Below are positions 70-33,149 of a stretch of DNA of 40,729 bases, one piece after another. This DNA is from a virus: positions 1 to 40,729 of the IMG/VR virus record IMGVR_UViG_3300025426_000061; one strand, 5' to 3'. The first letter of the stretch is position 1. Each line of letters starts with the position of its first letter. Below the pieces are notes generated by a model, which had not been told where the DNA came from, searched no databases, and saw only the letters and a program-made list of their open reading frames with translations. The position numbers were made by a program, and so were the translations under genes.

Positions 70-77
70 AATAAATA
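70..77 (+). promoter_or_regulatory. T4-type late promoter box (AATAAATA)
   Basis: The box AATAAATA lies in the 101-base gap before the first gene, 24 bases ahead of its ATG. It matches the T4 late promoter core TATAAATA except at the first base. A good ribosome binding site (AAGGA at 90-94) follows, seven bases before the start. The same ATAAATA core recurs in three other gaps of this window, each just ahead of a structural gene, which supports it as a late promoter. A transcript from here could cover the five baseplate genes to 5514. Confidence 0.6.
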
Positions 78-5538: not shown

Positions 5539-5546
5539 GATAAATA
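5539..5546 (+). promoter_or_regulatory. T4-type late promoter box (GATAAATA)
   Basis: GATAAATA lies in the 50-base gap between gp25 and gp6, 18 bases before the gp6 ATG. It matches the T4 late core TATAAATA at seven of eight bases and is identical to the boxes at 28961 and 33142. AGGA at 5555-5558 serves as ribosome binding site. No further box was seen until 28961, so a transcript from here probably covers gp6, the giant gene, the repeat fibre and the S53 peptidase, more than 23 kb. Confidence 0.7.
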
Positions 5547-12000: not shown

Positions 12001-15000
12001 TTATGGCCTGCTTATGTTCCGCAAATTTATACAGATACAACACTAGTAACTCCAAGAACGATGATACAAGGCCATGATGGTAGCCAAGTATTAGCTTACG
12101 GTGACTATCGTGACGATTTAATTTTAGAATTAGAAAAACGTATATACAACAATATTAAAGTACAATACGATCCTACTATTTTTGACATTGCTGATGTCAT
12201 TCCTAGTTATAACAGACCAAACGATTATACTTTATCAGAGTTTAATGATGTTCTTGCTCCTAATTTTTACAAGTGGGTGCAACTATCAGGACGAGATTTT
12301 ACTAAACCTCTAAGCTATGATATAACAAATCCGTTTACTTATAACTATTCTGAATCAAATGCACCTGACGGTAGAAATATTCCAGGTTATTGGAGAGGAA
12401 TTTATCAATATATTTTAGATACTGACCGTCCTAATTTATGTCCTTGGGAAATGTTAGGGTTTAGTATTATGCCTAGTTGGTGGGTAGACTTATATGGACC
12501 TGCTCCTTATACTGGAGACAATTTGCCAATGTGGCAAGATATTAGCCAAGGCCTAGTAAGAGCTCCAGGAGTGCCTCCAGTTAAACTAAGCAAGTATGCT
12601 AAACCGTTCTTAATGCAACATATTCCTGTAGATAGTGATGGGTTATTATTCAGCCCAAGAGAATCGGGTCTTGCTTATGGTACTATTACTCCAAGCATAG
12701 ATAATAACTTTGTATTCGGTGATGTAAGTCCAGTCGAAGGTGCCTGGCGCCGTAGCAGCCACTATCCATTTAGTGTATTAATTACTTCTATCTTATTAAC
12801 TCCTGCAAAAACATTTGGTCTAGTACTTGACAGATCAAATATTTCAAGAAATCTTGCAGGTCAACTTGTTTACAAGTCTACTAATTTAAGAGTTCGACCA
12901 AAAGATATAGTATTACCAAGCATTTACTCTAGTGCAATTCGTGTTCAAACTGCCGGCGTAATCAATTATATAGTAGATCATATCTTGAATTTTATCTTTA
13001 GTAATAATATTAAAGATTACAATCAATACTCTACAGACTTGACTACAATGACAAGTCAAATTAGTTATAGAGTTGGAGCATTTACTAGTAAAGAACAATT
13101 TAATTTATTACTAGATAGCAAAACTCCACAAAGTGCCGGAAGTGTGTTTGTTCCTCAGGAAAATTATCATGTTAATATTAACAGCTCTAGTCCAATTAGA
13201 AGAATAAACTATAGTGGTGTTATTATTACTAAACTTCAAGCTGGATACGAAGTTAAAGGATATAGTATTACTCATCCTTATTTCAAATATTATCCATATA
13301 CTCAAACTGGTCAAAGCATTAATATTGGAGGCATAAGCGAGGCTTATTCTACATGGACAGCAGGCCAACAGTACATTGCTAATTCTGTTGTGTTATACAA
13401 CGGAAGATTTTACAGAGCATTAAGTACATTAACTGCCGGCTTAACATTCGATGCTACATCCTTTGCTGAATTATCTAGTTTGCCTATTATAGGTGGTCAA
13501 AATGCTGTATTAAGAAAATTATGGGATCGATCAAATCCTATAACTGTTCCTTATGGAACAGAGTTCTCTTCAATACAAGATGTTGTTGATTTCTTACAAG
13601 GTTACGGAGAATGGTTAAAAGATCAAGGTTTTGTATTTGATGATTTTAATACAAGTTTGAATAATGTTAGTAACTGGGATACTAGTGCTAAAGAATTCTT
13701 GTTCTGGACCACACAAAACTGGACAGCAGGCGAAGATAAGTGGAGCGATTGGACTCCAAATGAACCAGTACCATACGGTACTATAGTAAGATATAATGGC
13801 GATTATTATAGCGCATTGTATAATCTTGCGGCATCTGCAATATTTGATCCAATTAAGTATACAAAATTAGACGGATTAAGTACAGTAGGTAGTAGTGTTA
13901 TAAGCCTAAGCCCTGCGGCAAACAAACTTACCTTTAATGTTCCATTAGCAGTAGTCGATAACATTAGTAATCAATTCTACGAATATGAAATATTTAAAGT
14001 TGATGGAACACCATTGGCACCATTATTCTTAGACAGCTTTAGAGAAGGTAATATTGTAAGTTACAGTCCACGTACTGATGATGGAATCTATGGTGCTAGT
14101 TTTTATCTAATTCAAAATGAGCATGTAATTACATTAGATAATTCTACAATTTTTAATGATGTAATTTACAATCCAGAAAGCGGATATAGACAAGAACGTA
14201 TTAAAGTTTCAGGACACGTGAGTCTTGACTGGTACGGTGGGTTAGATGTTCCAGGATTTATTTTTGACCAAGCTAATATTCAGCAATGGCAACCATGGAA
14301 AGATTATGCATTAGGCGATATAGTTAACTATCAAGGTTTTTATTATGCAGCCAACGCATCGATTCCTGGTGTACAATTTTTTGATGCAACAAATTGGAAT
14401 CAACTATCTTCTAGACCACAAGCGGAATTAATTCCTAACTGGACTTATAAGGCAACCCAATTTACTGACTTTTATAGTTTAGATAGCGATAACTTTGACA
14501 ACCAACAACAAAAAATGGCACAACATTTAATTGGTTATCAAAAACGTCAGTATTTAGATAATATTATCCAAGATGATGTTAGCGAATTTAAATTTTATCA
14601 AGGAATGATTCGTGAAAAAGGAACACAAAATGTTCTTAATAAACTATTTAATGTCCTTAGTTCAGACAGCGAAGAAAGTTTAACATTCTACGAAGAATGG
14701 GCTATACGTGCAGGCCAGTACGGTGCGGCAAAAGCATTTGAAGAAATTGAATTTATATTAGACGAAGGGTTGTTTAGATCGAATCCGCAAGGCTTTGAAT
14801 TAGTTAATACCATTGATACTAATTTAAAAAATACATTTATTATACAACAAACTCCTAACGATGTTTACTTAACACCATTGGGGTATAATAGTCAGCCTTG
14901 GCCATTATTAACTACATACTATCCTTTCCTAAGAAGTGCTGGGTATGTGAATAGTAAAGAAATATTTTTAAGCCTGGGCTATTTGCCAGAAATAGTTAAT

Positions 15001-18000
15001 CAAGATATTACTTCTTTCAACGAAGGAGCATATATTTGGGTAGCATTTGAAGGACCTAGTTGGAATTTGTATAGATATACTGATATCCATTTGTCTATTA
15101 CTGGTGTTTCATATAATTTAAGTACAAAAACATTAACACTTACTACACAAAATTTAACAGGATTATCTGTCGGACAATGGATTGGTCTGTCACAAGTAAC
15201 AATATTACAAGGTTTTTATCAAATTACTAGTGTAAAACTGAATACTTTTACAGTAACAGCTAATTTAGGAAATTTTCCAAATCCGTTTAATCAAAGTAAT
15301 GAACTTGTTGTGTATTCTCTAGTTAGTCAACGTACTAATAGCATAGATAATTTAGACTCTATCCTCACTTTAAAATTAAATCCAGGCGAACTAGTATGGA
15401 CAGATGACAAGGGCGACGGTAAATGGGCCAGCTGGGTATATAATCCTGTTTATACATTGAGTAATGTTAATAATCAAGCCGCACAAAATCAATTAAGATT
15501 TGGTAATATTATTGCAGTAAACAACAAAGGCACATTAGCCGCAGTTGGATCTAGCTTCGGGGAAATAATTACTTACGATAAAGCAGGTACAGTAACTCCT
15601 TGGGTGCAACGCCAAATTATATCTGCTCCATATATTGCTACCAACATAGTATTTTTATTAACAGGTTCTATTTCTATTAACGGAAATGTCCTAACTACGA
15701 CAAATGCTGTAACTAATATGATTGGCGGCTTGATAGAAGGCCCAGGAATTCCATATGGAACTACAATAATTTCTGTGTCTGCTGGAACTAGCGTAACTAT
15801 TAGTCAAACATCTACTGCAACAGTTAGCTCATCAACATTTACAATTACTGCAAGTCAGAATTTACCTACAACACTATCTACTTCAATAGCATTTTCAAGT
15901 GGTGGTACATGGATGGCATCTGCTAGCCCGTTAGCTGGCTATGCAGCCACTAACTATCTTGGTGCATACACTAGTGTAAACACTTCAACATTAAGTGCAG
16001 GCGTAGTAGTTTCAACTGGTTCTGGAACTAATATTGCTTACTGGCAAGCATTGACAACTGTATTGCCTAATCATACACCTACATCTACATCGGCGTACTG
16101 GGAACAAATTTATTATCTACCTGTTAATTCATATGGTACATGGTCAATATATAATTCTTATCCAAATAATACATTAGTTGTTTATAAATCTAAATTATAT
16201 CAATCTAATCAGGCACTATATGGCCAAACAACTATAAACATTTATGGTACAAATACCAGCGGAGTTATAACCGCTGATACTACTGCAGGATTAGCATCAG
16301 GATATGAAATTATTTTTTCAGGATTTTCGTTTGGCGGTATAATAATTGGAGCTCCGTATTATATTGTTTCTGTTTTAAGTTCAACTACATTTACAGTTTC
16401 GGGACAACAAGGCAGTTCTAATTTATCTCCATTAACTACAGCAACAAATTCTGCTGGCGCAATGACAGCTACACAGCAACCACTACCTTCACCGGGTTCT
16501 AACAGCCAATGGACAGATATTACTAGTCAAGCCACATCAGCTTATGTAGGTCTTGACACTACATATTATCTTGGCGGTCCTGCTGGCCAAGGTGTTGTCA
16601 GCTTATACAAGAAAGATGCTAATAACAATTATTTCTTAATTGATACTATTGTTAGCCCATTGTTTGTGACAAACGAAAACTTTGGTAGTAATTTAGTATT
16701 TGGTACTAATGAATTATACGTATCTGCAACCGGTTATAAAAATAGTAGCAATGTAACAGTCGGTGCAGTATATAAATTAAAATATTCTACTATAATACAA
16801 CAATCAACTAGTTATAATCCTGCTGGTAGTAGTTTTGGCACATTAAAAGTTGCTAGTACAAGCGGTATAAGAGTTGGAATGAGTTTGGTCAACCCTGCAT
16901 TTGTCAGCGGACAAACTGTTATCAGTGTAGTCGACAGCACTACATTATTGTTAAGCGGTAGTCCAGATTCTATCCCAAGCGGCATTATTCAATTTGCAGT
17001 AACTGGGTGGGGATATGATTTTACAGAATTCTATACAGGTTCAGTTTCTGGAGGCAACTTTGGTAGTGCCATTAGCTTGAGTCAAGACGGTTCTACACTT
17101 GCTATTAGTGCAAGCGGTGGAACACAAAACGGTCTTGTAAAAATTTATAAAAATTCTGGAACAGGATTTAGTTTGTTGCAAACTATTACAGGAACTGATT
17201 TAGATTTTGGAATTAGTACAAGCATATCTAATTCTGGAACTTATATTGCAATTTCTGATGATACAGCTACGACTCCAGGATTTGTACAACGTGGCGGAGT
17301 AAGTGTATACAGTTATGCAAACAATACTTACAGTTCTTATTACTCTTTAGTACCTCACATTCCAGAAACCAATGGGCATTTTGGAAATAAGATATCGTTT
17401 ATGAATGACTACGAAACACTGGTAGTGTTTAGTCAATACGGTGATACTAGAATTATAACTACTTTTGATAATAACAAAACAACATTTGATAAAAACAGTA
17501 CAGATTTTGTATACAATCAAGTCAATGGCGGACGTATTGATGTGTATGATGTGTATGCTACTAAATGGGTCTTTAGCGAAAGTTTAACTAAATCTAATCC
17601 AGTAGTTTCTGCTGGAGAATTTGTTATAAATGATGTTTATCAAATTTTAACTTTAGGTACAACAGACTTTACAAAAGTCGGAGCAAGTACAAACGCCATC
17701 GGAGTAACATTTACTGCTACAGGTGATGGAGCAGGAACTGGAACAGCGGCTTTAAAAACTAATGAAACTATAGAACTTGATGGATACGGATCAGGATTTG
17801 CAGTTGGATCCAATCATATTTTAGTCGGGTTGCCTGAAGCAGTTGATCAAGGTTATGTATCTGGTCGAGTAGTTGATTATGGAAAACCTGAAAATACCTT
17901 TACATGGACAGTTGACCATACCGAAGTTGATAAACCAGATGTAACTAAAATTAAAAAAGCCTTTTTATATAATAGAATTACAGGAGAATTATTAACTCAT

Positions 18001-21000
18001 TTAGATGTTGTCGACATTGCCCAAGGAAAGGTCCCAGGGCCAGCAGACGAAGAAATTATGTATAAAGCATTTTATGATCCTGCTGTGTACAACACATTTA
18101 GCGGATCTACATCTCCAAATTCTTCTGCGGCATGGACAACTGACCAAGTAGGACAACTATGGTGGGATCTTCGCACCGCAAAAATTATCGATGCGTATGA
18201 AGATGATCCTGTATATAGAAATACAAATTGGAGTACACTAGCTACTGGTTCTACTATAGACATCTATGAGTGGATTGGCACAAAATATAAACCAAGTCAA
18301 TGGGACGCACAAGCAGACACTCCTGCTGGGTTAGCATTGAATATTAGCGGTACAAGTTTGTATGGAGATAATCAATATAGTATTCGTACAACTTATAATA
18401 CTGTAACTAAATCAACTGTTACTACATATTATTACTGGGTTAAAAATAAGAAATTTATTCCTAATGTTTCAGGAAGACATATGGCGGCACAAGATGTGTC
18501 GAGTTTAATATCAAACCCAAGAGGTCAGGGCTATACATATCTTGCATTAACTGGCCCTAATAGTTTTAGTTTAATTAATGCTAAACAATATTTGTCATCA
18601 AATAATGTTGTATTAAGCATACAATATTGGACTGGCACAAAAACAGATCAAAATATACATAGTCATTGGAAAATTATAAGCGATGACCCAACTACATATA
18701 TTCCTACAGTAGTTGAACAAAAATGGATTGATAGTTTGTGTGGAAAAGATATCGCAGGTCGAGAAGTTCCTGATCCAAGATTACCGCCTAAGATTCGTTA
18801 TGGTATCGAAAATCGTCCAAGACAAGGAATGTTTGTAAATAGATTTGAAGCATTAAAGCAATTTGTAGAATTAACAAATCAAATATTAGCCGAAAATCAA
18901 ATTGTTGAAAGTGATAACATTGCACCTTTAGAAACTTACGATCCTCAACCAAGTATCATTTCTGGATTATATGATGCTGTATTTTCTGTAGATACGGATT
19001 TAAGTTATGCTAGTGTTGGTAATTTTACTCGTCCAAGCATAACACCTGTAGTTAATAACGGAAAAATTACAGGAGTGGTCATCAATAGTTCTGGCAAAGG
19101 TTATATAACATCGATTAATGGAACAGCTACGGCACCATTCTTAACAGTTAATGGCGTAGGTGAAGGTGCAGTAGTCCAAGCAGTATTAAATGCTAAAGGA
19201 CAAATCATTGGGGCTAACATTATATCTCCGGGAGAAGGTTATACAGCAAATACTACTACAATCACAGTTAGAGATTATTCAGCATTAGTACAAAGTGATA
19301 GTCAAGCAAACGGTAATTGGAGCATTTATAGTTACGATCCAGTACAACAGTCTTGGAATCGTACATTAACACAAAGCTACGATGTAAGAAATTATTGGAA
19401 TTATAGTGATTGGTACGGATCATATGTCGATACTAATGGCAAAACAATCTTTACAGCCACACAATTTACAGTAGCAACTTTTGCTGTGGCTAACCTAACA
19501 GGTTTAAATGCTATTAATGCATCTATAGGCGATACTGTTAAAGTTAGAAATAGCAATAATGGCGGTTGGGAATTACTGTACAAATATGCAAATTCTACAA
19601 GCGTTGATTGGACACAATCTTATGCTACAGTTGGTATACAAAACGGTACGATACAATTAAGTAGTAGTTTGTATCAGTTAGCAAATACTGATTTAGGATT
19701 TGATAATACAATATATGATTCTACAGGATTTGATAAAGTAGCCGCTACAGAATTAAGAATTATTTTAAACACACTTAAAAATAATATCTTTACTAAAGAA
19801 AATAATTTAAATGGTAGTTATTCAGATATATTCTTTGCTGGCGTAAGATATGCATTAAGCGAACAGCCATATGTTGATTGGATTTTCAAAACAAGTTTTG
19901 TTAAAGCACAGCATAATGTTGGAGCATTGGATCGACCAGTTACTTACAAACCAGATAATCTAGCAAACTTCGAAGATTATGTTAACGAAGTTAAACCATA
20001 TAAGACTAAAATCCGCGAATATGTAAGTAATTATAATAGTATTGACCCAGCGCAATTACCTATTACTGATTTTGACTTACAGCCAATATATGAAAACGGT
20101 GTTGTTAAAGTTATCGACACGTATGTTAGTAACGGTAAATTGCAATCCCAAGATGGTGCAGTAAGTACATATCCTTGGAATTTCTGGTTAACAAATGCAG
20201 GCTTTGAAGTTATTGATTTAAAATTAACCAGTAACGGTTCAAATTATATTACAGAACCACAAGTTGTCTTTACAAGTGATAGTGGCTCAGGCGCTACCGC
20301 CCGTGCATTTATTAGTAACGGACAAGTTAGCAGAATTGTATTATTAACATCAGGTAGCGGTTATTTGTCAGCACCAACTGTTACGATTAACGGTGGGCTA
20401 TTACAAACCGGTGTCGCCGCAACAGCTAGTGCCATTATTGGCAATAGTGTCGTTCGTGGCACACTAGTTGGTATGAAATTTGACCGCGTTGATTCTACTT
20501 ATTTTATAACACAAAGAACTAAAACTGAAACATTTACTGGAAGCGGAAGTCAATTACAATTTTTATTAACATGGGGCCCAGATATAACTCTTGGAGCAAG
20601 CACTGTTACTATCAATAATATTCTTGTTTTAAGAGACACATATAAAATGTCAGTCCTTAGCTCAACAGCTTCGGGTTATACAACTTATTATGGAATGATA
20701 CAGTTTAACACTGCTCCTGTTAAGGGTTCTAGCATTAGTGTAACTTATCAAATTAATCAAGCGTTGTTAAAAGCCACAGATAGAATTCAATATTTGTATT
20801 CTCCAACAACTGGCGAATTAGGAAAAGATCTTGCACAATTAATGACAGGTGTTGATTATGGCGGAGTTGTTGTTAACGGTATAGGATTTAAATTATCCAC
20901 AGGTTGGGATAGTTTACCATATTTTACGGACGCATGGGACACTTATGATGAGACATTTACTGATTATAACGTTATCGTAGATGCCAATACTAATACATTT

Positions 21001-24000
21001 ACATTACCATATACACCTGCGGCTGGCGTACAATTAAACTTATATAGAACACAAACTCATACTGATTCTTATCAATCGGATGGTGTTACTACAGTTTATA
21101 ATTACAGTCTTTCAGATATATTACCTTATGTAACTGTTGTAAATAATCTTGCAACTACTTCAGTAACCGCAGTAGGTAGTTTAACTATTGCAGTATCAAG
21201 CACAGCAAGTTTGAAACTTAATGATGTAGTGACATTGGCAAACTACAGTGCCTTTAGTTATGATACTACTGTTGCTGGAATTAACGGTAATACTGTTACT
21301 TTAAGTAATATTATATATGAAGCTATTCCACAAGGTACTTATATCACATTTACCCGTACATTAGTTCAGCCAACCGATGTTATTATTAATTCTGACGGAC
21401 AAATTAAATTAACTAATTTGTCTAATTCAAAAATACTTTCTGGAACAATTATTAATATTATTGGTCAATTAAATCCTGTCAGACTTGATGATCCATATTA
21501 TAATATTAATCCTTTTATACAAGATTTAGTAAATGCATTTGCTTATGATACAGCATTTACTGTGATGGGTGTAACCAGTAATTTACAAAGTATTTTTGTA
21601 GCTCTTGAAATATTGGATCAAGTAACAACTTACGGATTTGATCCTGCTGCCACTGCATTTAGTGTAACATCTATTGCAAATGAAATATTAGCTATTCCAG
21701 CAGTAGCCGCAAACGCCAATGCAATTAGTACAATTAACACAAATCTTGCTAATATTGTAGGAATAATAAAACAAACTAATAATGGAGTTATACCTACTCC
21801 AGAATTTCCAGCACCGTCTGGAACAAACACTGGTATTATTAATGCCGGAATATTGTTGTTTGATAACATACCATACATTCAAGCAGAAATGGTGGCGTAT
21901 ATTACCACTACATATCCTAGTGTGAATTATAACCACGCTAGCTGTCAACGCGATGTTCAGTATGTTGTTTGGGCATTAATATACGATTTGACTTACGGCG
22001 GAAATAGTCAAACTACACATGCTGGTTTAAGATATTGGTTATACAATAGCGTTTTAAATGTAGAACCCGTCAACTATTGGGAAGATGTTTATACACATTT
22101 TAAAACTATTTGTTTGGACATTATTACTAACACAGCATTTAGTTCTTTACAAAATATTTTTACACAATATATTAATACAGGACTAAATGGAGGATCTGCG
22201 GCAACTACTAGCATTACAAATAATATCAATACATTCTTAACTATTATTGGATCTCCAAATAAACCAACTGTAACTGCAACAGCACCTACATTGACTAATG
22301 CTTCAGTTGCATTACAAAATGTAGCAACAGCAATATTAACAGCTACAGGTTTAACTCCTACATACAATACAAGTGCTATTGTAAACACATTCTTATCTAA
22401 TGGTATTTCGGATAGTAATGGAGTTGTTACTAAGACATTTAGTATTTCAACACCTTATACTTCTATAGATGGCGGAGCATCATTTACTACATTGGATTCC
22501 GAAATAGATGATGGCGGTAGCGCAAATTCAAATAGTCCAACAGTAACAGACGAAGGTGGCACTGCAAGTTCAACAGCATTTATTGTTAATGCAGGTGATG
22601 AATTTATTATAAGACAAACTACAAGTGATGGTAGTATTGCTCCTAAAGCAACTGATTACGATACAAGTCTTAGCGGCGGCGATACTAGCCAATTAAACGG
22701 AATATATTTGACTGCTACTGGTCTTGCCGCAGATGATATTATTGTTGATGGAGATGATTTAATTACACCAACAACTAGCCCAGCACCAGAAGAAGTTGTG
22801 CCGGGGCAAGTCGTTGATGCGGTTGCAATTAAAGTATTTGACAAACCAAATAACGGTGCCGCTACAATGCGCACTGACAATTATATTGCAGACGGTACAA
22901 CTACAAGTTTTGCATTAAGCCAACAACCAAATAGCAAAGGTGCAGTAATTGTAAAATTAAATGATACAGTTAAAACTTTAAATGTAGATTATACTGTTGA
23001 TTATAGAAATCGTTTAGTTGTGTTTAGTAGTGCTCCGAGTGCAAATACACAAATTAGTTTGTTTAGTATTGGATTTAATGGCTCTAATATTTTAGATATA
23101 GATCATTTTATTGGCGATGGTTATACAACTGAATTTGTAAGTAATGCAAAATGGCAAAATCTAATAACAACATTAGTTTATGTAGATGGAGTCGTTGCAA
23201 GCCCTCAAGTATTTGAAACTAATAATTCATATGATTTTTCTAATGCTGTTGCATTTAGATTCTCAGTTGCGCCAGCGGCAGGCGCATTAGTTAGTTTTAT
23301 AGTTGTAGCAGGGTCTCAACAGACATTTGCAATTACTAAAGTAGAAACTGTAGCCACAAACGGCGCTACAACTTATACATTGCAAAATCAAATTGGCAAT
23401 GCATTGCCTAACGAATCTAATATGATTGTTCGTGTAGATCAAAATATATTACCAGCTCCTGTAAATAGTTATTTTACAATTGGCAGCAACAGATTAAATT
23501 ATACTATTGATTCTACTAAATTTGTTCCGTTTGCAGTGCTTATTACTAATATAGTTGTTTATGTCGGCAATGTTACTTTAGTTCAAGGAACTGATTATAT
23601 TGTTGATTTGTCCGGTATTACAGTTAAAATTAATAAATCAATTTATAAAACATATTCGGGACAAACATTAATTGTAAGTATCATAACAAACGAAGGATAT
23701 ACATTTAATCCTGCAACTAATCAAATTACATTTGCGCAAGCGTACGATAATACACATTTGGTACAAGTTATTAGCAGTTATCAACACGATATATTGAATA
23801 TTGAGCGTACTGCGGTTAGTGTAACTAGTGATGCAGAATTAACTCCTAATAGTGCAAGTTTTTACTATTATCAATCAGCGGCCGGTGGCTTAATACAATT
23901 AGATCGTCCAGTAATTAATGACTATTATGTATGGGTGATTAAAAATTCAACTTTATTAACTCCTACAGTAGAATATAAATTGAATGATGATTTACAAAGT

Positions 24001-25017
24001 ATTACTTTAGCATCTTCATTGATATCCTCAGACGTAATTACATTGATAACATTTGGATCTAATATTGTAACTCCAGGTATTGCATATATGCAATTTAAAG
24101 ACATGTTAAATCGTGTAAGTTACAAACGATTGAGTGCAACTAAGCAAACAACTCTGGCACAAAATTTACATTGGAATGATACTGTTATTGTTTTAACAGA
24201 TGCAAGTAATTTTGATGTTCCAAGTCCTGCAAATAATAAGCCAGGTGTTGTTGAAATCCGTGGAGAACGTATTGAATATTTTTCTAAAAACGGCAACACA
24301 CTAGGTCAATTACGCAGAGGCACATTGGGCACAGGTGTGTTTACAGTGAATCTAGTAGGTACACATGTACAAGATATCGGTGGTAGCGAAACTATTCCTT
24401 ATTCTGATTCTCAGACTGTAAAACAATACATAAGTGATGGCACAGATACTGTTGAATTAGATTTTATTCCAGCTAATGTGAATGAAATTGAAGTATTTGT
24501 CGGCGGATATAATACAGGAAGTGTGTGGACTAGCGGTGTTGATTACACAGTAGGAACTATTGTAAATCAAGGACCGTATACTTACAGATGTACAACTGCG
24601 CATACAAGTACTAATTTCTTTACAGATATTGCTAATTGGACATTCTTTATTGGAAATATACGTTTAAAGAAAGAATCATATAGCGTATTCAATATTAATA
24701 ATGCTCCTGAAAGCCCAGCGGGAGATGTTACATTCCCTGCTGATTTTACAGTAGACGGAACAACTGCAAAAATAACATTGTCTAATTTGTTAGATTTTGG
24801 AACTCAGATAACTGTAATTAAAAATACAGGTGTTGCGTGGGATAATTCTATAAGCATATTATATGATACATCCAATATTGGACAATTTTTAAGAGCAACA
24901 CCGGGCATTTGGTATAGTGAGTATAAGCAGATAAGTACTACACCAACTGGAACTTTTGATAGTGCTGGAGATACTATGGACAGTAGTTCTGGCGAAACAT
25001 TCGATCAAGGACAATAA
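9070..25017 (+). CDS. Giant baseplate-associated structural protein (5,315 residues)
   Basis: One uninterrupted 15.9-kb reading frame directly after gp6, the position of T4 gp7, though five times its length. The N-terminus (1-160) has the FLPKFYQSDANKKFLQATLDQ and EFYSWDPHIDWDKFVNFQNYYW motifs of large virion proteins of aquatic T4-like phages. A helical conserved block (DDVSEFKFYQGMIREKGTQN) lies near 1830-1890. Modules visible along the chain: Trp/Tyr-rich segments like carbohydrate-binding modules near residues 1428, 1558, 1740, 2358 and 5153; FG-GAP-like propeller repeats at about 2140-2915; GxGY...PxxTI repeats near 3330-3400 and 3715-3780; an ASCQRDVQYVVWALIYDLTYGGN domain near 4295-4320; a GERIEYF motif near 5065. 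It probably forms the outer wedge and a long adhesive arm. A gp7 role is inferred from position. It overlaps gp6 by eight bases. Confidence 0.75.
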   Translation: MANNNNPLGNTGLTVNFLPKFYQSDANKKFLQATLDQLYQPGSIKKINGYVGRENAKSATGADVYLTAADASRQNYQLEPAITVTDKIGNQTFFKDYIDYINQIGTFGGNTSNHARLNKQEFYSWDPHIDWDKFVNFQNYYWMPYGPDTIKIVGQQQAITSTYTVTVESELSNNEYLFTPNGFTRNPVLKLYRGQTYTFEITSPGNPFSFKTARSPGSDDRYVTSNIDNYAVENGTITFSVPLDAPTLLFYQSESDINLGGAIEVLDITADTYIDIANDMLGKKHYKLPDGTALSNGMKLAFEGNVIPAEYAVGEFYVEGVGVAIKLIPTTILEVVNPYTEEKTIPFDSDKFDSLPFSDASGYAGSSDYIVINRTSNDRNNWSRYNHWFHKDVIATSSTYNGNPVELDQTARAIRPIIEFDADLKLANYGTTAIDDIDIIDDYTTDAFSTIEGLFAYNVDGVALAEGQRIIFTADTDRLVKNKIFKVTFVDVLHLSKGSRQIHLVEIADPVEYQVATVKFGNKYQGKTFWYNGTSWIKSQQKLTVNQAPLFDVVDENGISFGDSSVYNGTTFVGTTLFSYKTGTGLSDTALGFPLSYRNISNIGDIVFNFTLATDTFQYKQTTSLITQAINVGYLVSQTYAGKTIYENGWQTCTAPNTQAAIRIYKNSGQTNNFNIDIFDDVSNLLDLVVRVYVNGIRLSPTLWKLVTNSDYVQVQLTTDIALTDVLTIRAFAAQPINSNGYYEIPVNLQNNPLNNVMGDFTLGEVADHVNSIVDNLATTFVGTFPGDSNLRDLGNVTQYGTKFVQHSGPLSLAIYHITNQSNNIVRSLEQARDDYNSFKRNFIKTASNLGIDGDPVVITNLILQKLNKDKPNTSPYYFSDMAPYGACVVTNLTVVDYRIKQYPLSSVFTLTTLSNKAVGVYYNGIQMIYGQDYTFDNSGFIVVQDSFTLTNGSTISTYEYDSTDGSFIPATPTKLGLWPAYVPQIYTDTTLVTPRTMIQGHDGSQVLAYGDYRDDLILELEKRIYNNIKVQYDPTIFDIADVIPSYNRPNDYTLSEFNDVLAPNFYKWVQLSGRDFTKPLSYDITNPFTYNYSESNAPDGRNIPGYWRGIYQYILDTDRPNLCPWEMLGFSIMPSWWVDLYGPAPYTGDNLPMWQDISQGLVRAPGVPPVKLSKYAKPFLMQHIPVDSDGLLFSPRESGLAYGTITPSIDNNFVFGDVSPVEGAWRRSSHYPFSVLITSILLTPAKTFGLVLDRSNISRNLAGQLVYKSTNLRVRPKDIVLPSIYSSAIRVQTAGVINYIVDHILNFIFSNNIKDYNQYSTDLTTMTSQISYRVGAFTSKEQFNLLLDSKTPQSAGSVFVPQENYHVNINSSSPIRRINYSGVIITKLQAGYEVKGYSITHPYFKYYPYTQTGQSINIGGISEAYSTWTAGQQYIANSVVLYNGRFYRALSTLTAGLTFDATSFAELSSLPIIGGQNAVLRKLWDRSNPITVPYGTEFSSIQDVVDFLQGYGEWLKDQGFVFDDFNTSLNNVSNWDTSAKEFLFWTTQNWTAGEDKWSDWTPNEPVPYGTIVRYNGDYYSALYNLAASAIFDPIKYTKLDGLSTVGSSVISLSPAANKLTFNVPLAVVDNISNQFYEYEIFKVDGTPLAPLFLDSFREGNIVSYSPRTDDGIYGASFYLIQNEHVITLDNSTIFNDVIYNPESGYRQERIKVSGHVSLDWYGGLDVPGFIFDQANIQQWQPWKDYALGDIVNYQGFYYAANASIPGVQFFDATNWNQLSSRPQAELIPNWTYKATQFTDFYSLDSDNFDNQQQKMAQHLIGYQKRQYLDNIIQDDVSEFKFYQGMIREKGTQNVLNKLFNVLSSDSEESLTFYEEWAIRAGQYGAAKAFEEIEFILDEGLFRSNPQGFELVNTIDTNLKNTFIIQQTPNDVYLTPLGYNSQPWPLLTTYYPFLRSAGYVNSKEIFLSLGYLPEIVNQDITSFNEGAYIWVAFEGPSWNLYRYTDIHLSITGVSYNLSTKTLTLTTQNLTGLSVGQWIGLSQVTILQGFYQITSVKLNTFTVTANLGNFPNPFNQSNELVVYSLVSQRTNSIDNLDSILTLKLNPGELVWTDDKGDGKWASWVYNPVYTLSNVNNQAAQNQLRFGNIIAVNNKGTLAAVGSSFGEIITYDKAGTVTPWVQRQIISAPYIATNIVFLLTGSISINGNVLTTTNAVTNMIGGLIEGPGIPYGTTIISVSAGTSVTISQTSTATVSSSTFTITASQNLPTTLSTSIAFSSGGTWMASASPLAGYAATNYLGAYTSVNTSTLSAGVVVSTGSGTNIAYWQALTTVLPNHTPTSTSAYWEQIYYLPVNSYGTWSIYNSYPNNTLVVYKSKLYQSNQALYGQTTINIYGTNTSGVITADTTAGLASGYEIIFSGFSFGGIIIGAPYYIVSVLSSTTFTVSGQQGSSNLSPLTTATNSAGAMTATQQPLPSPGSNSQWTDITSQATSAYVGLDTTYYLGGPAGQGVVSLYKKDANNNYFLIDTIVSPLFVTNENFGSNLVFGTNELYVSATGYKNSSNVTVGAVYKLKYSTIIQQSTSYNPAGSSFGTLKVASTSGIRVGMSLVNPAFVSGQTVISVVDSTTLLLSGSPDSIPSGIIQFAVTGWGYDFTEFYTGSVSGGNFGSAISLSQDGSTLAISASGGTQNGLVKIYKNSGTGFSLLQTITGTDLDFGISTSISNSGTYIAISDDTATTPGFVQRGGVSVYSYANNTYSSYYSLVPHIPETNGHFGNKISFMNDYETLVVFSQYGDTRIITTFDNNKTTFDKNSTDFVYNQVNGGRIDVYDVYATKWVFSESLTKSNPVVSAGEFVINDVYQILTLGTTDFTKVGASTNAIGVTFTATGDGAGTGTAALKTNETIELDGYGSGFAVGSNHILVGLPEAVDQGYVSGRVVDYGKPENTFTWTVDHTEVDKPDVTKIKKAFLYNRITGELLTHLDVVDIAQGKVPGPADEEIMYKAFYDPAVYNTFSGSTSPNSSAAWTTDQVGQLWWDLRTAKIIDAYEDDPVYRNTNWSTLATGSTIDIYEWIGTKYKPSQWDAQADTPAGLALNISGTSLYGDNQYSIRTTYNTVTKSTVTTYYYWVKNKKFIPNVSGRHMAAQDVSSLISNPRGQGYTYLALTGPNSFSLINAKQYLSSNNVVLSIQYWTGTKTDQNIHSHWKIISDDPTTYIPTVVEQKWIDSLCGKDIAGREVPDPRLPPKIRYGIENRPRQGMFVNRFEALKQFVELTNQILAENQIVESDNIAPLETYDPQPSIISGLYDAVFSVDTDLSYASVGNFTRPSITPVVNNGKITGVVINSSGKGYITSINGTATAPFLTVNGVGEGAVVQAVLNAKGQIIGANIISPGEGYTANTTTITVRDYSALVQSDSQANGNWSIYSYDPVQQSWNRTLTQSYDVRNYWNYSDWYGSYVDTNGKTIFTATQFTVATFAVANLTGLNAINASIGDTVKVRNSNNGGWELLYKYANSTSVDWTQSYATVGIQNGTIQLSSSLYQLANTDLGFDNTIYDSTGFDKVAATELRIILNTLKNNIFTKENNLNGSYSDIFFAGVRYALSEQPYVDWIFKTSFVKAQHNVGALDRPVTYKPDNLANFEDYVNEVKPYKTKIREYVSNYNSIDPAQLPITDFDLQPIYENGVVKVIDTYVSNGKLQSQDGAVSTYPWNFWLTNAGFEVIDLKLTSNGSNYITEPQVVFTSDSGSGATARAFISNGQVSRIVLLTSGSGYLSAPTVTINGGLLQTGVAATASAIIGNSVVRGTLVGMKFDRVDSTYFITQRTKTETFTGSGSQLQFLLTWGPDITLGASTVTINNILVLRDTYKMSVLSSTASGYTTYYGMIQFNTAPVKGSSISVTYQINQALLKATDRIQYLYSPTTGELGKDLAQLMTGVDYGGVVVNGIGFKLSTGWDSLPYFTDAWDTYDETFTDYNVIVDANTNTFTLPYTPAAGVQLNLYRTQTHTDSYQSDGVTTVYNYSLSDILPYVTVVNNLATTSVTAVGSLTIAVSSTASLKLNDVVTLANYSAFSYDTTVAGINGNTVTLSNIIYEAIPQGTYITFTRTLVQPTDVIINSDGQIKLTNLSNSKILSGTIINIIGQLNPVRLDDPYYNINPFIQDLVNAFAYDTAFTVMGVTSNLQSIFVALEILDQVTTYGFDPAATAFSVTSIANEILAIPAVAANANAISTINTNLANIVGIIKQTNNGVIPTPEFPAPSGTNTGIINAGILLFDNIPYIQAEMVAYITTTYPSVNYNHASCQRDVQYVVWALIYDLTYGGNSQTTHAGLRYWLYNSVLNVEPVNYWEDVYTHFKTICLDIITNTAFSSLQNIFTQYINTGLNGGSAATTSITNNINTFLTIIGSPNKPTVTATAPTLTNASVALQNVATAILTATGLTPTYNTSAIVNTFLSNGISDSNGVVTKTFSISTPYTSIDGGASFTTLDSEIDDGGSANSNSPTVTDEGGTASSTAFIVNAGDEFIIRQTTSDGSIAPKATDYDTSLSGGDTSQLNGIYLTATGLAADDIIVDGDDLITPTTSPAPEEVVPGQVVDAVAIKVFDKPNNGAATMRTDNYIADGTTTSFALSQQPNSKGAVIVKLNDTVKTLNVDYTVDYRNRLVVFSSAPSANTQISLFSIGFNGSNILDIDHFIGDGYTTEFVSNAKWQNLITTLVYVDGVVASPQVFETNNSYDFSNAVAFRFSVAPAAGALVSFIVVAGSQQTFAITKVETVATNGATTYTLQNQIGNALPNESNMIVRVDQNILPAPVNSYFTIGSNRLNYTIDSTKFVPFAVLITNIVVYVGNVTLVQGTDYIVDLSGITVKINKSIYKTYSGQTLIVSIITNEGYTFNPATNQITFAQAYDNTHLVQVISSYQHDILNIERTAVSVTSDAELTPNSASFYYYQSAAGGLIQLDRPVINDYYVWVIKNSTLLTPTVEYKLNDDLQSITLASSLISSDVITLITFGSNIVTPGIAYMQFKDMLNRVSYKRLSATKQTTLAQNLHWNDTVIVLTDASNFDVPSPANNKPGVVEIRGERIEYFSKNGNTLGQLRRGTLGTGVFTVNLVGTHVQDIGGSETIPYSDSQTVKQYISDGTDTVELDFIPANVNEIEVFVGGYNTGSVWTSGVDYTVGTIVNQGPYTYRCTTAHTSTNFFTDIANWTFFIGNIRLKKESYSVFNINNAPESPAGDVTFPADFTVDGTTAKITLSNLLDFGTQITVIKNTGVAWDNSISILYDTSNIGQFLRATPGIWYSEYKQISTTPTGTFDSAGDTMDSSSGETFDQGQ
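10369..10392. repeat. Perfect 24-bp palindrome inside the giant gene
   Basis: The 24 bases read identically on both strands, with no loop or mismatch. They consist of interleaved GAT, ATC and CGAT units and encode an Ile-Asp-Asp-Ile-Asp-Ile-Ile-Asp-Asp run. It may be a by-product of the Asp/Ile-rich peptide with GAT and ATC codons, or a hairpin in the mRNA. Confidence 0.85.
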
Positions 25018-25020
25018 AAA

Positions 25021-27708
25021 ATGACGCAACAGACCATTAATATAGGTACAATAGCAGGGGATCACACAGGTGATAGTTTGCGTACTGCTGGACAAAAAAT
25101 AAATGCAAATTTTGCAGAATTGTATACAAGCGTAGCACAATCAGCAATTCCTGCTCAAGCAAGTAATGCCGGAAAAGTTTTAATTACTAACGGAACAAAT
25201 TTTAATTGGCAACAACTTAATAATATAAGCAATGGTAATGTTAGTGTTTACGTTGATAGTTATGGTAATTTAAATATTCCAGGTAACATTATTCTTAGTA
25301 GCACAAGTCCAAGTGTGTTATTATCTAATACTAGTTCTCTTATTGTACCAACATTAAACTTTTCAGATACTAGTATTCAAACTACTGCATATTTAGGAAC
25401 TGCTACAGTAGCTCAAATAGGAGGTGTTAAACCTGACGGAAGTACAATTACTATCACTAATGGAGTCATAAGTGCAGTACCAGGAGCGTATGTGCTACCA
25501 ACTGCTAGTCTAACAGTATTAGGTGGCGTCAAAGTTGATGGAAGTACAATTACTATTACTAATGGAGTTATTACTAGCCACAGTACTTACAGTTTACCTA
25601 ATGCAACTAATAGTGTATTAGGCGGTGTCAAAGTTGACGGTACAACAATTACAGCTAACAATGGAGTTATTACAGCAACCGCATATTCACTACCAACTGC
25701 TACAACAATCGCATTGGGCGGTGTTAAAGTTGATGGTACAAGCATAGCAATTAATAACGGAGTAATTAGCACAGGAGTACTAACTAGTAGTCAAGTTACA
25801 TCGGCATTAGGTTTTACACCATATAATGCTACAAATCCAAACAATTATGTTTCAATAGGATCTTTTAGTGTTAGTACAAATGCGGCTAGCGGAGCAGGTA
25901 GTTTAACTTATAATAATTCAACTGGTGCTTTTACATTTACACCTCCTGCGGCTTATACATTGCCAACTGCTACAACAAGTACATTAGGTGGTGTAAAAGT
26001 TGATGGTACAAGTGTAACAATATCTAGTGGAATTATTAGTGTTCCTGCTGTAGCTACTATTGGACAAAACAGCGGAATTGCTACTTTAGATAGCACTGGC
26101 AAATTATCTGCTTCACAAATTCCTAGTAGTTTAACTGGAGCAGTTGTTTTCAAAGGTGCATGGAATGCAAACACAAATAATCCAACATTGGCAAACGGTA
26201 CAGGTACAGCTGGTTGGGAATATGTAGTTAGTGTTGCTGGAACAGCATTGGGTTATACATTTAATCCTGGAGATTATGTAATTTATAACGGAACTACTTG
26301 GCAACAAATTCCAAATGGTAGTACAATATCTGCTAGTACATTAACTGGCACAACGTTAGCATCTAATGTTACAAGTTCAAGTTTAACTAGTGTAGGAACA
26401 TTGACAAACTTAACAGTAACAAATACTATTAATGGAAGCATTACTGGTAATGCCGCAACAGTATCTAGTATTAGTGGAAATACATTAACTATTGGACAAG
26501 TCACTGGAGCATTAGGTTATACTCCATTACAATCAAATAGTTTAAGTGTAGTAACTAATGCGGCTAGCGGTGCAGGTTCGTTAACATATCTTAATAATGT
26601 GTTTACATTTACACCTCCTGCGGCTTATTCATTACCGACAGCAAGTGCTTTGCAGTTAGGCGGTGTTAAAGTAGATGGAACCACTATTACAATTAGCGGA
26701 GGTATAATTAGTTCTGCTCAATATACTTTACCAACAGCTACTACAAGTGTGTTGGGCGGTGTTAAAGTAGACGGAACTACTGTTACAATTAATAATGGAG
26801 TAATTAGTAGTGCTAGTGCTTATTCATTACCAACAGCTACTACAAGTGTATTAGGTGGTGTTAAGATAGATGGCAATACTATTTCAATTACTAACGGAAT
26901 TATCAGTGCTAACTATACAAATTATTCATTACCAACAGCTACTACAAGTGTGTTGGGCGGTGTTAAAGTAGACGGAACTACTGTTACAATTAATAATGGA
27001 GTAATTAGTAGTGCTAGTGCTTATTCATTACCAACAGCTACTACAAGTGTATTAGGTGGTGTTAAAGTAGATGGAACTACTATTACAATCAGCGGAGGTG
27101 TAATTAGTTCTGCTCAATATACGTTACCAACAGCAAGCACTACAGTTTCTGGCGGAATTAAAATTGATGGCTCGACTTTAACGTTTAATGGCAGCGGCCA
27201 ACTAGTTGCTAACTATACAAATTATTCATTACCAACAGCTACTACGAGCATATTAGGTGGCGTAAAAGTTGATGGAACTACTGTTACAATTAATAACGGA
27301 ACAATTAGTTCTGTACAACCAATTGGATTACAAACTCGTTCAACAGTCCAAGTAATTACTTCAGTACTAGCCAACCAAGCTAGCACAACAGCTACTACTG
27401 CAATGGCAAAAGGTTATGCATTATATAGTATTCAATCATCTGCTGGCGCATGGGTAACTGTTTACACAAGTGCAACTGCACAATCAAATGATAGTTCAAG
27501 ATCAATAACAACAGACCCAACACCAGGTAGCGGCGTTGTTGCTGAATCAATAACTACTACAGCAACTACAACATATTTTACACCAGCAGTTTATGGTTAT
27601 AATGCAGATCCTACTATTAGTGCAACAACTTATTTAAAAATTTATAATAACAATGGATCAAGCCAAGTTATTACTGTGACATTAACTTATCTTAAATTAG
27701 AAATATAA
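25021..27708 (+). CDS. Repeat-rich tail fibre protein
   Basis: An 895-residue fibre. The N-terminus INIGTIAGDHTGDSLRTAGQKINANFAELY (5-37) is a known start of T4-like fibre proteins and probably the docking part. The shaft holds 12 copies of a roughly 33-residue unit built on LPTATTSVLGGVKVDGTTVTINNGVIS, with two larger duplicated segments (AASGAGSLTY...FTFTPPAAY) between copies. The last 125 residues form a non-repetitive tip with QVITSVLANQAS and ALYSIQSSAGAWVTVYTSA, a C-terminal domain found in several fibres and probably the receptor-binding or trimerisation part. It starts three bases after the giant gene and lies one base before the peptidase gene, so all three are probably co-translated late. 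Confidence 0.75.
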   Translation: MTQQTINIGTIAGDHTGDSLRTAGQKINANFAELYTSVAQSAIPAQASNAGKVLITNGTNFNWQQLNNISNGNVSVYVDSYGNLNIPGNIILSSTSPSVLLSNTSSLIVPTLNFSDTSIQTTAYLGTATVAQIGGVKPDGSTITITNGVISAVPGAYVLPTASLTVLGGVKVDGSTITITNGVITSHSTYSLPNATNSVLGGVKVDGTTITANNGVITATAYSLPTATTIALGGVKVDGTSIAINNGVISTGVLTSSQVTSALGFTPYNATNPNNYVSIGSFSVSTNAASGAGSLTYNNSTGAFTFTPPAAYTLPTATTSTLGGVKVDGTSVTISSGIISVPAVATIGQNSGIATLDSTGKLSASQIPSSLTGAVVFKGAWNANTNNPTLANGTGTAGWEYVVSVAGTALGYTFNPGDYVIYNGTTWQQIPNGSTISASTLTGTTLASNVTSSSLTSVGTLTNLTVTNTINGSITGNAATVSSISGNTLTIGQVTGALGYTPLQSNSLSVVTNAASGAGSLTYLNNVFTFTPPAAYSLPTASALQLGGVKVDGTTITISGGIISSAQYTLPTATTSVLGGVKVDGTTVTINNGVISSASAYSLPTATTSVLGGVKIDGNTISITNGIISANYTNYSLPTATTSVLGGVKVDGTTVTINNGVISSASAYSLPTATTSVLGGVKVDGTTITISGGVISSAQYTLPTASTTVSGGIKIDGSTLTFNGSGQLVANYTNYSLPTATTSILGGVKVDGTTVTINNGTISSVQPIGLQTRSTVQVITSVLANQASTTATTAMAKGYALYSIQSSAGAWVTVYTSATAQSNDSSRSITTDPTPGSGVVAESITTTATTTYFTPAVYGYNADPTISATTYLKIYNNNGSSQVITVTLTYLKLEI
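26728..26864 (+). repeat. 137-bp perfect direct repeat, copy 1
   Basis: Identical to 26929-27065, at an offset of 201 bases (67 codons, two protein repeat units). Other units of this fibre agree in protein but differ at many third positions, so this perfect DNA identity points to a recent duplication or gene conversion within the fibre shaft. Confidence 0.9.
26929..27065 (+). repeat. 137-bp perfect direct repeat, copy 2
   Basis: Second copy of 26728-26864. The identity ends at an A in place of G in a GTTAA(A/G) run. Because the offset is a multiple of three, recombination between the copies would delete or add 67 residues without a frameshift. Confidence 0.9.
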
Positions 27709-27709
27709 T

Positions 27710-28936
27710 ATGGACTTTAAACCAGCTAACCTTGTTCCAATAGATATAACAGATCCTAATACAGGGGCAGTGCCAAATGCATTGCCAGTTAACGGATATC
27801 TTACACCACCTCAAATTGCCACGGCATACGGTTTGCCTGCAAGTACTGGCTATGGAGTTAAAATTGGAATTATTAGTTTAGGCGGCGGATTTTTACAAAG
27901 CGATCTTAATAAATCTTTTGCGGACTTACAAAATGCTGGATTAATTTCTTCTTCGTTAACAGTTCCAACAATACAACAAAAATTGTTTGATGGAGCATCC
28001 GGTACTTTTAGTTCTACTGACGGATCCAGCGGTGAAAATACTGTTGATATTTTTTGTATAGCTACTATTGCTCCTCAGGCTAACATTACAATATATATTG
28101 GGCAAACTTGGACAAGCCCTATCAATCAAGCTATAGCAGATGGTTGCCATATAATCAGTATTAGTTGGGGAACTTCTGAATCTAGTGATTTCTTATCAAC
28201 ACAATTTTCTACGGCACTTAATAACAAACAAACAATACTTATTGCATCTGGAGATTCAGGGTCTGAATGGTACACAGGCGCTGGCAGTTTATCGGTTGGT
28301 TATCCAGAATCGAGCCCGTTAGTAATTTCAGTAGGCGGAACAAAACTTACACTAACGGGTTCCAACGCCAGGTCAGCAGAAACAGATGATAATAGAGATT
28401 CAAATTTTGGAACAACTTGGGGAGGCGGTGGTGGCCTGAGCACATTGTTTTCTTTACCAAGTTGGCAAACTGGATTAAACTATACAAAAATTACAAACGG
28501 AGTCACAGGAAGCCCTACATCATTAACTGTAAGAGGAGTTCCTGATATTTCGGCTCCAATGAATGTATATGCATTATATTTTAATGGATCGGCCGCTGGT
28601 TACGGCGGCACTAGTCTAGCATGTCCTGTGATGGCCGGAATGTTAGCTAGATTTCAGCAACTAACAGGTGTACAACGATCTAGTGTTGACTATAACACAC
28701 TTTTTTACTCTAATCCTAGTGCATTCTATGATATTACAGTAGGATCTAATAATGATGTAATTACTACAGGATATGCAGGAACAACAGGATGGGATTGTGT
28801 AACAGGTTTAGGCCCACCAATTGGGGCTTCTTTATATTCAAAACTTCGACCTAATGTAACTTTTCCTAAACATAATTACGGATTCCGCCCAACATCTGGA
28901 GCAGTTTATCCAAGAAAAACTACCGGTGCTCGATAG
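27710..28936 (+). CDS. S53 family (sedolisin-type) serine-carboxyl peptidase
   Basis: A 408-residue peptidase with the full S53 catalytic set. The Glu/Asp pair appears in GENTVDIF (E109, D113), the oxyanion Asp in IASGDSG (D182), and the nucleophile in the GYGGTSLACP motif (S302). The calcium site ending is also present: FYDITVGSN (D341, I342) and TGWDCVTGLGPP (D362). The start resembles a mature sedolisin (LTPPQIATAYGLP at 31-43, then YGVKIGIISLGGG). The usual propeptide of about 180 residues is missing, as is any signal peptide. A basic, Pro/Gly-containing tail follows the catalytic domain (380-408). The gene sits between fibre genes, one base after the preceding stop, so it is made with virion proteins. 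A place on the tail, attacking host surface proteins, is plausible; processing of virion proteins is the alternative. Confidence 0.88.
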   Translation: MDFKPANLVPIDITDPNTGAVPNALPVNGYLTPPQIATAYGLPASTGYGVKIGIISLGGGFLQSDLNKSFADLQNAGLISSSLTVPTIQQKLFDGASGTFSSTDGSSGENTVDIFCIATIAPQANITIYIGQTWTSPINQAIADGCHIISISWGTSESSDFLSTQFSTALNNKQTILIASGDSGSEWYTGAGSLSVGYPESSPLVISVGGTKLTLTGSNARSAETDDNRDSNFGTTWGGGGGLSTLFSLPSWQTGLNYTKITNGVTGSPTSLTVRGVPDISAPMNVYALYFNGSAAGYGGTSLACPVMAGMLARFQQLTGVQRSSVDYNTLFYSNPSAFYDITVGSNNDVITTGYAGTTGWDCVTGLGPPIGASLYSKLRPNVTFPKHNYGFRPTSGAVYPRKTTGAR

Positions 28937-28960: not shown

Positions 28961-28968
28961 GATAAATA
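28961..28968 (+). promoter_or_regulatory. T4-type late promoter box (GATAAATA)
   Basis: GATAAATA lies in the 52-base gap after the peptidase gene, 20 bases before the next ATG, with a purine-rich AAAGAGAGA ribosome binding site between them. It is identical to the boxes at 5539 and 33142 and probably starts a late transcript for the 202-residue protein and the first two paralogous fibres. Confidence 0.7.
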
Positions 28969-28988: not shown

Positions 28989-29597
28989 ATGCAGACTAAA
29001 GACGCAACAGGAATACATATTGAGGGACATATTAAGATATATGACCCTGAATCTAAAGAAATTTACATTGACAAACGCAATGCAATTCACTACGAAAATA
29101 TTAGTGTAGCTTTAGCACAAAGTCTAGCAGACAGCGGCAACGGCTTTGTTTACAATATGGCTTTTGGCAATGGCGGAACAAGTATCGATCCAACAGGAAT
29201 TATTACATACCTTACACCAAATACTAGCGGAACAAATGCTAGTCTTTACAATCAAACATACGCAAAAGTAGTTAATCAAAATAGTGCAAACAACACAGAT
29301 CCTACTAGAAATTTTATTGAAACAAGACACACTACTGGTACAAACTATACAGATTTATTTGTAACTTGTTTGTTAGACTACGGTGAGCCAAGCACTCAAA
29401 GTGCGTTCGATGTGGTAAACAACAGCAACAGTCAATTTGTTTTTGATGAACTAGGTTTGCAGGCTTACAATAGTAACGGTTCGTCATTATTGCTAACACA
29501 TGTTATTTTTCACCCTGTATTAAAAAGTCTTAACAGACTGGTTCAAATAGATTATACAGTACGTATTCAAAGTTTAACTGGATTGGTAGGAGTATAA
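28989..29597 (+). CDS. Probable virion structural protein, unrecognised family
   Basis: A 202-residue protein with no enzyme motif. It starts with a hydrophilic beta-rich segment (GIHIEGHIKIYDPESKEIYIDKRN), has a helix around AIHYENISVALAQSLADS, and then a GFVYNMAFGNGG motif followed by Thr/Asn-rich beta sequence. The last third (SQFVFDELGLQAY, LLTHVIFHPV, RLVQIDYTVRIQSLTG) reads as a beta sandwich. I associate similar small proteins with the fibre regions of aquatic T4-like phages, where they are annotated only as structural. It heads a late transcript and is followed three bases later by a fibre gene, so a connector or fibre-base role is likely but unproven. It does not resemble T4 gp8, gp9 or gp11 at motif level. 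Confidence 0.55.
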   Translation: MQTKDATGIHIEGHIKIYDPESKEIYIDKRNAIHYENISVALAQSLADSGNGFVYNMAFGNGGTSIDPTGIITYLTPNTSGTNASLYNQTYAKVVNQNSANNTDPTRNFIETRHTTGTNYTDLFVTCLLDYGEPSTQSAFDVVNNSNSQFVFDELGLQAYNSNGSSLLLTHVIFHPVLKSLNRLVQIDYTVRIQSLTGLVGV

Positions 29598-33141: not shown

Positions 33142-33149
33142 GATAAATA
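33142..33149 (+). promoter_or_regulatory. T4-type late promoter box (GATAAATA)
   Basis: GATAAATA lies in the 46-base gap before the third fibre gene, 24 bases ahead of its ATG. AGGAGC at 33167-33172 sits very close to the start codon. The octamer is identical to those at 5539 and 28961. It probably drives the third fibre and the 300-residue protein after it. Confidence 0.7.

Follow-up and report, generated by a model that had tools for sequence, protein, structure and literature searches.

A prodomain-less S53 peptidase, encoded next to a baseplate fibre in an uncultivated phage, as a candidate fibre-tip enzyme

What does a sedolisin-type peptidase do among the baseplate and fibre genes of a phage? 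The question is raised by IMG/VR virus record IMGVR_UViG_3300025426_000061, which was analysed over its full 40,729 nucleotides (hereafter the window). The window is part of the genome of a jumbo-myovirus relative. A gp6-like wedge gene and a phrog_11259 gene in it match those of Atu_ph07, Phosso, RaK2/K64-1 and others. The features on which the analysis turns are collected in Table 1.

Table 1. Features of the window that bear on the S53 gene and its fibre partner.
Feature	Position	Strand	Basis or remark
T4-type late-promoter-like box GATAAATA, before the gp6-like wedge gene	5539..5546	+	
Baseplate fibre, 895 aa, gp9/gp10-like N-terminus and repeat shaft	25021..27708	+	PF07880, phrog_958
CTD, the C-terminal tip domain of the fibre (residues 769-894) and constant companion of the tagged payload	27325..27702	+	
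Prodomain-less serine-carboxyl peptidase gene of family S53 (kumamolisin-type), 408 aa	27710..28936	+	phmmer, AF2
Catalytic Glu and Asp codons, E109 and D113	28034..28048	+	kumamolisin GEveLDI motif; invariant in 73 sequences
Oxyanion Asp codon, D182	28253..28255	+	invariant in 73 sequences
Catalytic Ser codon, S302, GGTS motif	28613..28615	+	invariant in 73 sequences
C-terminal tag FPKHNYGFRPTSGAVYPRKTTGAR, residues 385-408, proposed docking peptide	28862..28933	+	conserved, shared with S8 payloads
GATAAATA box between the S53 gene and the gene that follows	28961..28968	+	
phrog_11259 gene, borders the cassette slot	28989..29597	+	also in Atu_ph07 and Phosso, both without the cassette there

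By its catalytic residues and its predicted fold, the protein belongs to peptidase family S53. Comparison with kumamolisin (1t1g) by phmmer gave an E-value of 1.6e-37 over residues 31-383, and the Glu, Asp, oxyanion-Asp and Ser motifs all line up. In an alignment of 73 viral and cellular S53 sequences, the four catalytic residues are among 21 invariant columns, and D341 and D362, in the putative calcium loop, are all but invariant. These results bear out the first-pass annotation, which had read the family and the residues from the letters alone, and by sequence the active site is intact. With the 73-sequence alignment as input, AF2 gave a model with pLDDT 91 and pTM 0.90, superseding a poor one (pLDDT 59) built from 13 close sequences. 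The predicted fold is S53: its top PDB matches are kumamolisin-As, kumamolisin and sedolisin (for 4ne7, TM 0.75 by query and 0.86 by target), and the model implies the geometry of the catalytic tetrad. Against its relatives the gene has a dN/dS of 0.03-0.14, which indicates purifying selection and means that the frame is not a chance one. Pfam returned only the broad subtilase model for this protein, and neither PHROGs nor NCBIfam profiles recognised it as S53.

The N-terminus is more complicated than was first described. The annotation had the frame start directly at the mature domain, without a signal peptide. The second part holds: a signal-like hydrophobic N-terminus occurs in 24 of 36 cellular S53 proteins but in 0 of 109 viral ones, which makes export by the usual route unlikely. 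The exact start does not hold, since the kumamolisin match is preceded by a conserved stretch of about 30 residues. The Pro-kuma_activ prodomain is likewise absent from the window protein in a Pfam scan, as had been noted, and Pfam scans of most window proteins found no prodomain encoded by a neighbouring gene. This absence does not extend to the phage family as a whole: some sister phage proteins carry the prodomain in the same slot with the same neighbours. A prodomain is typical of cellular S53 enzymes and not strictly defining, because family membership is set by the catalytic domain. When 76 S53 domains are placed in a tree, phage sequences stand apart from the cellular ones (support 99/99, with only 19 cellular sequences sampled) and the prodomain-less phage proteins form a single clade (100/100). 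The simplest reading of that single clade is that the prodomain was lost once within the phage family.

The window protein belongs to a sizeable family whose known members all come from uncultivated phages. Two successive IMG/VR scans for relatives returned 20 and 91 stretches, one of the relatives (L011) lying on a 345-kb contig, and tblastn against 50,697 phage records returned none. Many related phages carry the gene, and a stray cellular gene is ruled out because phage structural genes flank S53 in many loci. Phages also exchange the gene: L068 has neighbours with 46-90% identity to those of the window (most 67% or more), whereas its S53 has 38%. Some family members have unusual structures. 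One phage protein of 1362 aa has both S8 and S53 domains (L058:6071-10159). In L019 (10001-11267) the S53 gene is broken into two overlapping frames of 169 and 261 aa; the near-identical L018 has an intact gene, and L019 represents a frameshift or an assembly error. The 345-kb record behind L011 (L229) has an extra S8 match in a 523-aa frame at bases 324669-325727, away from its S53 cassette.

Genomic context places the gene with the fibre. One base separates the fibre stop codon (27706-27708) from the S53 ATG at 27710, as had been stated. The N-terminus of the fibre matches PF07880 (E 9.9e-07, residues 3-75), and the protein matches phrog_958, annotated in PHROGs as a baseplate wedge subunit. 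The sequence ATAAATA occurs four times in the window (70-77, 5539-5546, 28961-28968 and 33142-33149) vs 32.7 expected, always on the + strand and in the gap just before a gene; three of the four occur as GATAAATA. These sites resemble T4-type late promoters, and the motif is avoided elsewhere in the window. The window lacks an exact T4 late box, TATAAATA, and has GATAAATA instead; scans for sigma-70 promoters and terminators gave chance-level results. There is no GATAAATA between 5539 and 28961, and if these boxes are read as T4-type late promoters, 5565-28936 forms one late unit. The arrangement fits S53 and fibre sharing a late unit with gp6.

In Atu_ph07 and Phosso the order is wedge, giant protein, phrog_11259 gene and next large gene, with no fibre and S53 pair. 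The window has a 5315-aa protein at 9070-25017, with two weak chitin-binding-like CBM_5_12 matches; giant structural proteins occupy the equivalent position in those two phages.

The fibre and protease genes form a widespread cassette rather than a one-off. What recurs is the last ~125 residues of the fibre, the CTD, which in most loci lie immediately ahead of S53, including loci with otherwise different genes. Marine cyanophages have this CTD too, and there the next gene, at a distance of -4 to +1 bases, encodes a subtilase assigned to S8 by Pfam. Two scans were run with CTD alignments, one with rows all from protease cassettes and one with rows all from non-protease cassettes, and retrieval was blind to the identity of the next gene. 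They gave at least 591 and at least 576 confirmed stretches, from which the best 80 loci per scan were retained. Among these loci, 175 fibre genes end in the CTD, six of them at a contig edge. The next gene is a serine protease in 121 of the remaining 169 (91 S8 and 30 S53) and something else in 48. The pairing of CTD fibre and protease appears to be obligate; the counts are drawn from related sequences and, because only the best 80 loci per scan were retained, the proportions are not census values. The protease is most likely an exchangeable payload, since the same tip is found with S8 in cyanophages and with S53, with or without a prodomain, elsewhere.

A third payload family of ~620-930 aa follows the same CTD in L122, L123, L125, L132, L133, L138 and L234-L300, with the tag described below located on the gene after the payload. 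Cyanophage S-H9-1 (L123 / L136) has two CTD fibres in tandem, one with a third-family payload and one with an S8 protease.

The cassette has a second mark, at the C-terminus of the protease. The first-pass annotation had noticed a short basic tail there; the tail is present, and proves to be a conserved peptide motif rather than merely basic. In most phage S53 proteins the C-terminus is a variant of FPKxNYGFRPxxGxxYPRKTTGxR, and the core RPxxGxx[YFW]PR is common to S53 and S8 cassette proteases (for example RPTTGHIFPRIRNRR in S-CREM1 and RPDSGAVFPRARNR in Sf-FR1). The window locus has both marks, with the CTD fibre directly upstream and the core on its payload. Among non-redundant complete payloads from the best 80 loci per scan, the strict tag is found in 25/25 S53 and 50/65 S8 proteins, and [YFW]PR in 65/65 of the latter. 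Other payloads have it in 0/38, but 33/38 of them are followed by a gene that does. The S8 and S53 cassettes among these loci never have a second tag on the gene that follows the protease. In the background, 2 of 1148 non-protease reading frames have the tag near their end, both small cassette proteins, and cellular S53 proteins have it in 0/37. Each of three large genomes contains the core motif a single time, in the protease.

Tag and CTD also vary together. Among non-redundant phage S53 proteins, 43 have both the tag and an adjacent CTD, 2 the CTD only, none the tag only and 11 neither; in place of the tag these 11 have extended C-termini, which in some contain Ig or glycine-rich repeats. 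Across the prodomain divide, median identity is 52% for the tag, 51% for the CTD and 39% for the catalytic domain. The tag region has low pLDDT in the model. Most likely the tag tethers the protease to the fibre CTD. It is improbable that the two are not binding partners and that the tag has some other role, for example in assembly or folding of the fibre module, with presence in the virion a separate matter. Such a role is compatible with a link drawn from co-occurrence, for which the Fisher p ignores shared ancestry. It sits poorly with a tag that is kept on S53, S8 and small non-protease proteins, once per cassette, and that is missing from phage S53 proteins without an adjacent CTD.

In another reading, the fibre or the giant protein is the substrate of the protease. 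The annotation had offered, besides an entry role, the trimming of the giant protein or fibres during assembly. A maturation protease led to its substrate by the tag is unlikely overall, although presumed late co-expression with the fibre and the constant fibre-tip pairing both fit the fibre as substrate. Structural proteases that mature the phage head are well documented (PMC7824862). Trimming of the giant protein is weakened because the pair also occurs with no detectable giant-protein homologue in the ~10-kb flanks (L029-L038, L074-L080), and with S8 in cyanophages; trimming of the fibre may still be entertained as a reading. Against any such cleavage, the slot is filled by two protease families and a non-protease, which is ill-suited to one specific cut. 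In addition, some S53 relatives are fused to long structural repeats, as expected of a component that stays in the particle.

For location in the virion, relatives provide the evidence. Virion annotation of cassette proteins comes from one relative, cyanophage S-SCSM1, whose virion was analysed by mass spectrometry (PMC9602691). Among the proteins that its record assigns to the virion are a CTD fibre (231), the payload of that fibre (232), a tail fibre with the ending RPQSGQMYPR (235) and an S8-domain protein of 1411 aa (228). By hand count, this virion mark covers ~48 features vs 45 in PMC9602691, so it is close to the mass spectrometry list and not exactly that list. In Atu_ph07, three clusters contain most of the virion proteins detected by mass spectrometry, CDS 170-215 being one of them (PMC6102473). 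The stretch homologous to the window locus, gp176-gp181, lies within it, and the S8 protease gp329 is in a cluster rich in detected virion proteins, near tail-fibre genes. From these relatives we infer a virion location for the window protein. An accessory enzyme that degrades host protein in the cytoplasm or on release at lysis, with no part in the virion, would suit a family otherwise known mainly as cellular peptidases. It is very improbable here, given the fibre-tip pairing, the structural-repeat fusions and the virion annotation of cassette homologues.

The best explanation, to which we assign a probability of about 0.6, is a virion-borne S53 peptidase that is docked on the fibre tip by its tag and cuts host-surface protein at adsorption. 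This keeps the first suggestion of a virion-borne protease acting on the host surface as the best reading, with its place in the virion drawn from relatives. The enzyme would be expressed late, along with the upstream fibre, whose N-terminus would anchor in the baseplate. The flexible C-terminal tag (RPxSGxxYPR) would tether it to the conserved tip domain. There it would cleave a protein of the S-layer, pili, outer membrane or sheath and so open a path or uncover a receptor, in the way that capsule depolymerases act on sugar. That the protein has no export signal agrees with cytoplasmic assembly. S53 enzymes normally require a prodomain for folding, which counts against this explanation. They are also typically acid-active; as a speculation, acid-dependence could keep the enzyme quiet inside the cell.

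Known systems resemble the window protein in part. Kumamolisin, kumamolisin-As and sedolisin share its predicted fold, catalytic Glu/Asp/Asp/Ser and calcium-loop residues; unlike kumamolisin and sedolisin, it is phage-encoded, has no prodomain or signal peptide, bears a C-terminal tag and is paired with a fibre. The cyanophage proteases of S-H38, S-WAM2, S-CREM1 and Sf-FR1 have the same CTD just upstream and the same C-terminal tag core, but belong to family S8 and have ~130 residues ahead of the catalytic domain. Atu_ph07 gp329 is likewise a protease of clan SB, with tail-fibre genes nearby and many detected virion proteins in its cluster, but it is a 1251-aa protein in a genome without a CTD fibre. 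Giant-virus proteins of Homavirus and Barrevirus (BFVD A0A3G5A7D9, A0A3G4ZQ87) have the S53 fold and 31-35% identity over the match; unlike the window phage, these viruses infect eukaryotes. Tail-borne capsule depolymerases, as tail-fibre enzymes that open the host surface, are similar by analogy, but act on polysaccharide and are not homologous.

More generally, there is an even chance that tailed phages share an undescribed plug-in system, in which a conserved fibre tip holds proteins ending in RPxxGxxYPR, mostly S8 or S53 surface-cutting proteases, and sometimes holds another payload via a small tagged protein. Enzymes with which phages remove sugars from the host surface are familiar; to our knowledge, dedicated protein-cutting enzymes at phage fibre tips are not. 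In the open-access literature covered, two jumbo-phage reviews included, there was no relevant report of sedolisin, kumamolisin, S53 or subtilisin with phage or cyanophage. The cassette suggests a common, undescribed phage means of cutting host-surface protein. If this is right, the window protein would be a natural case of an S53 enzyme working without a prodomain, and the docking tag a directly testable element. The cassette would also account for a large set of genes in cyanophages and other phages, many of them annotated 'hypothetical', and protein layers would be predicted as a common barrier for the phages that carry it.
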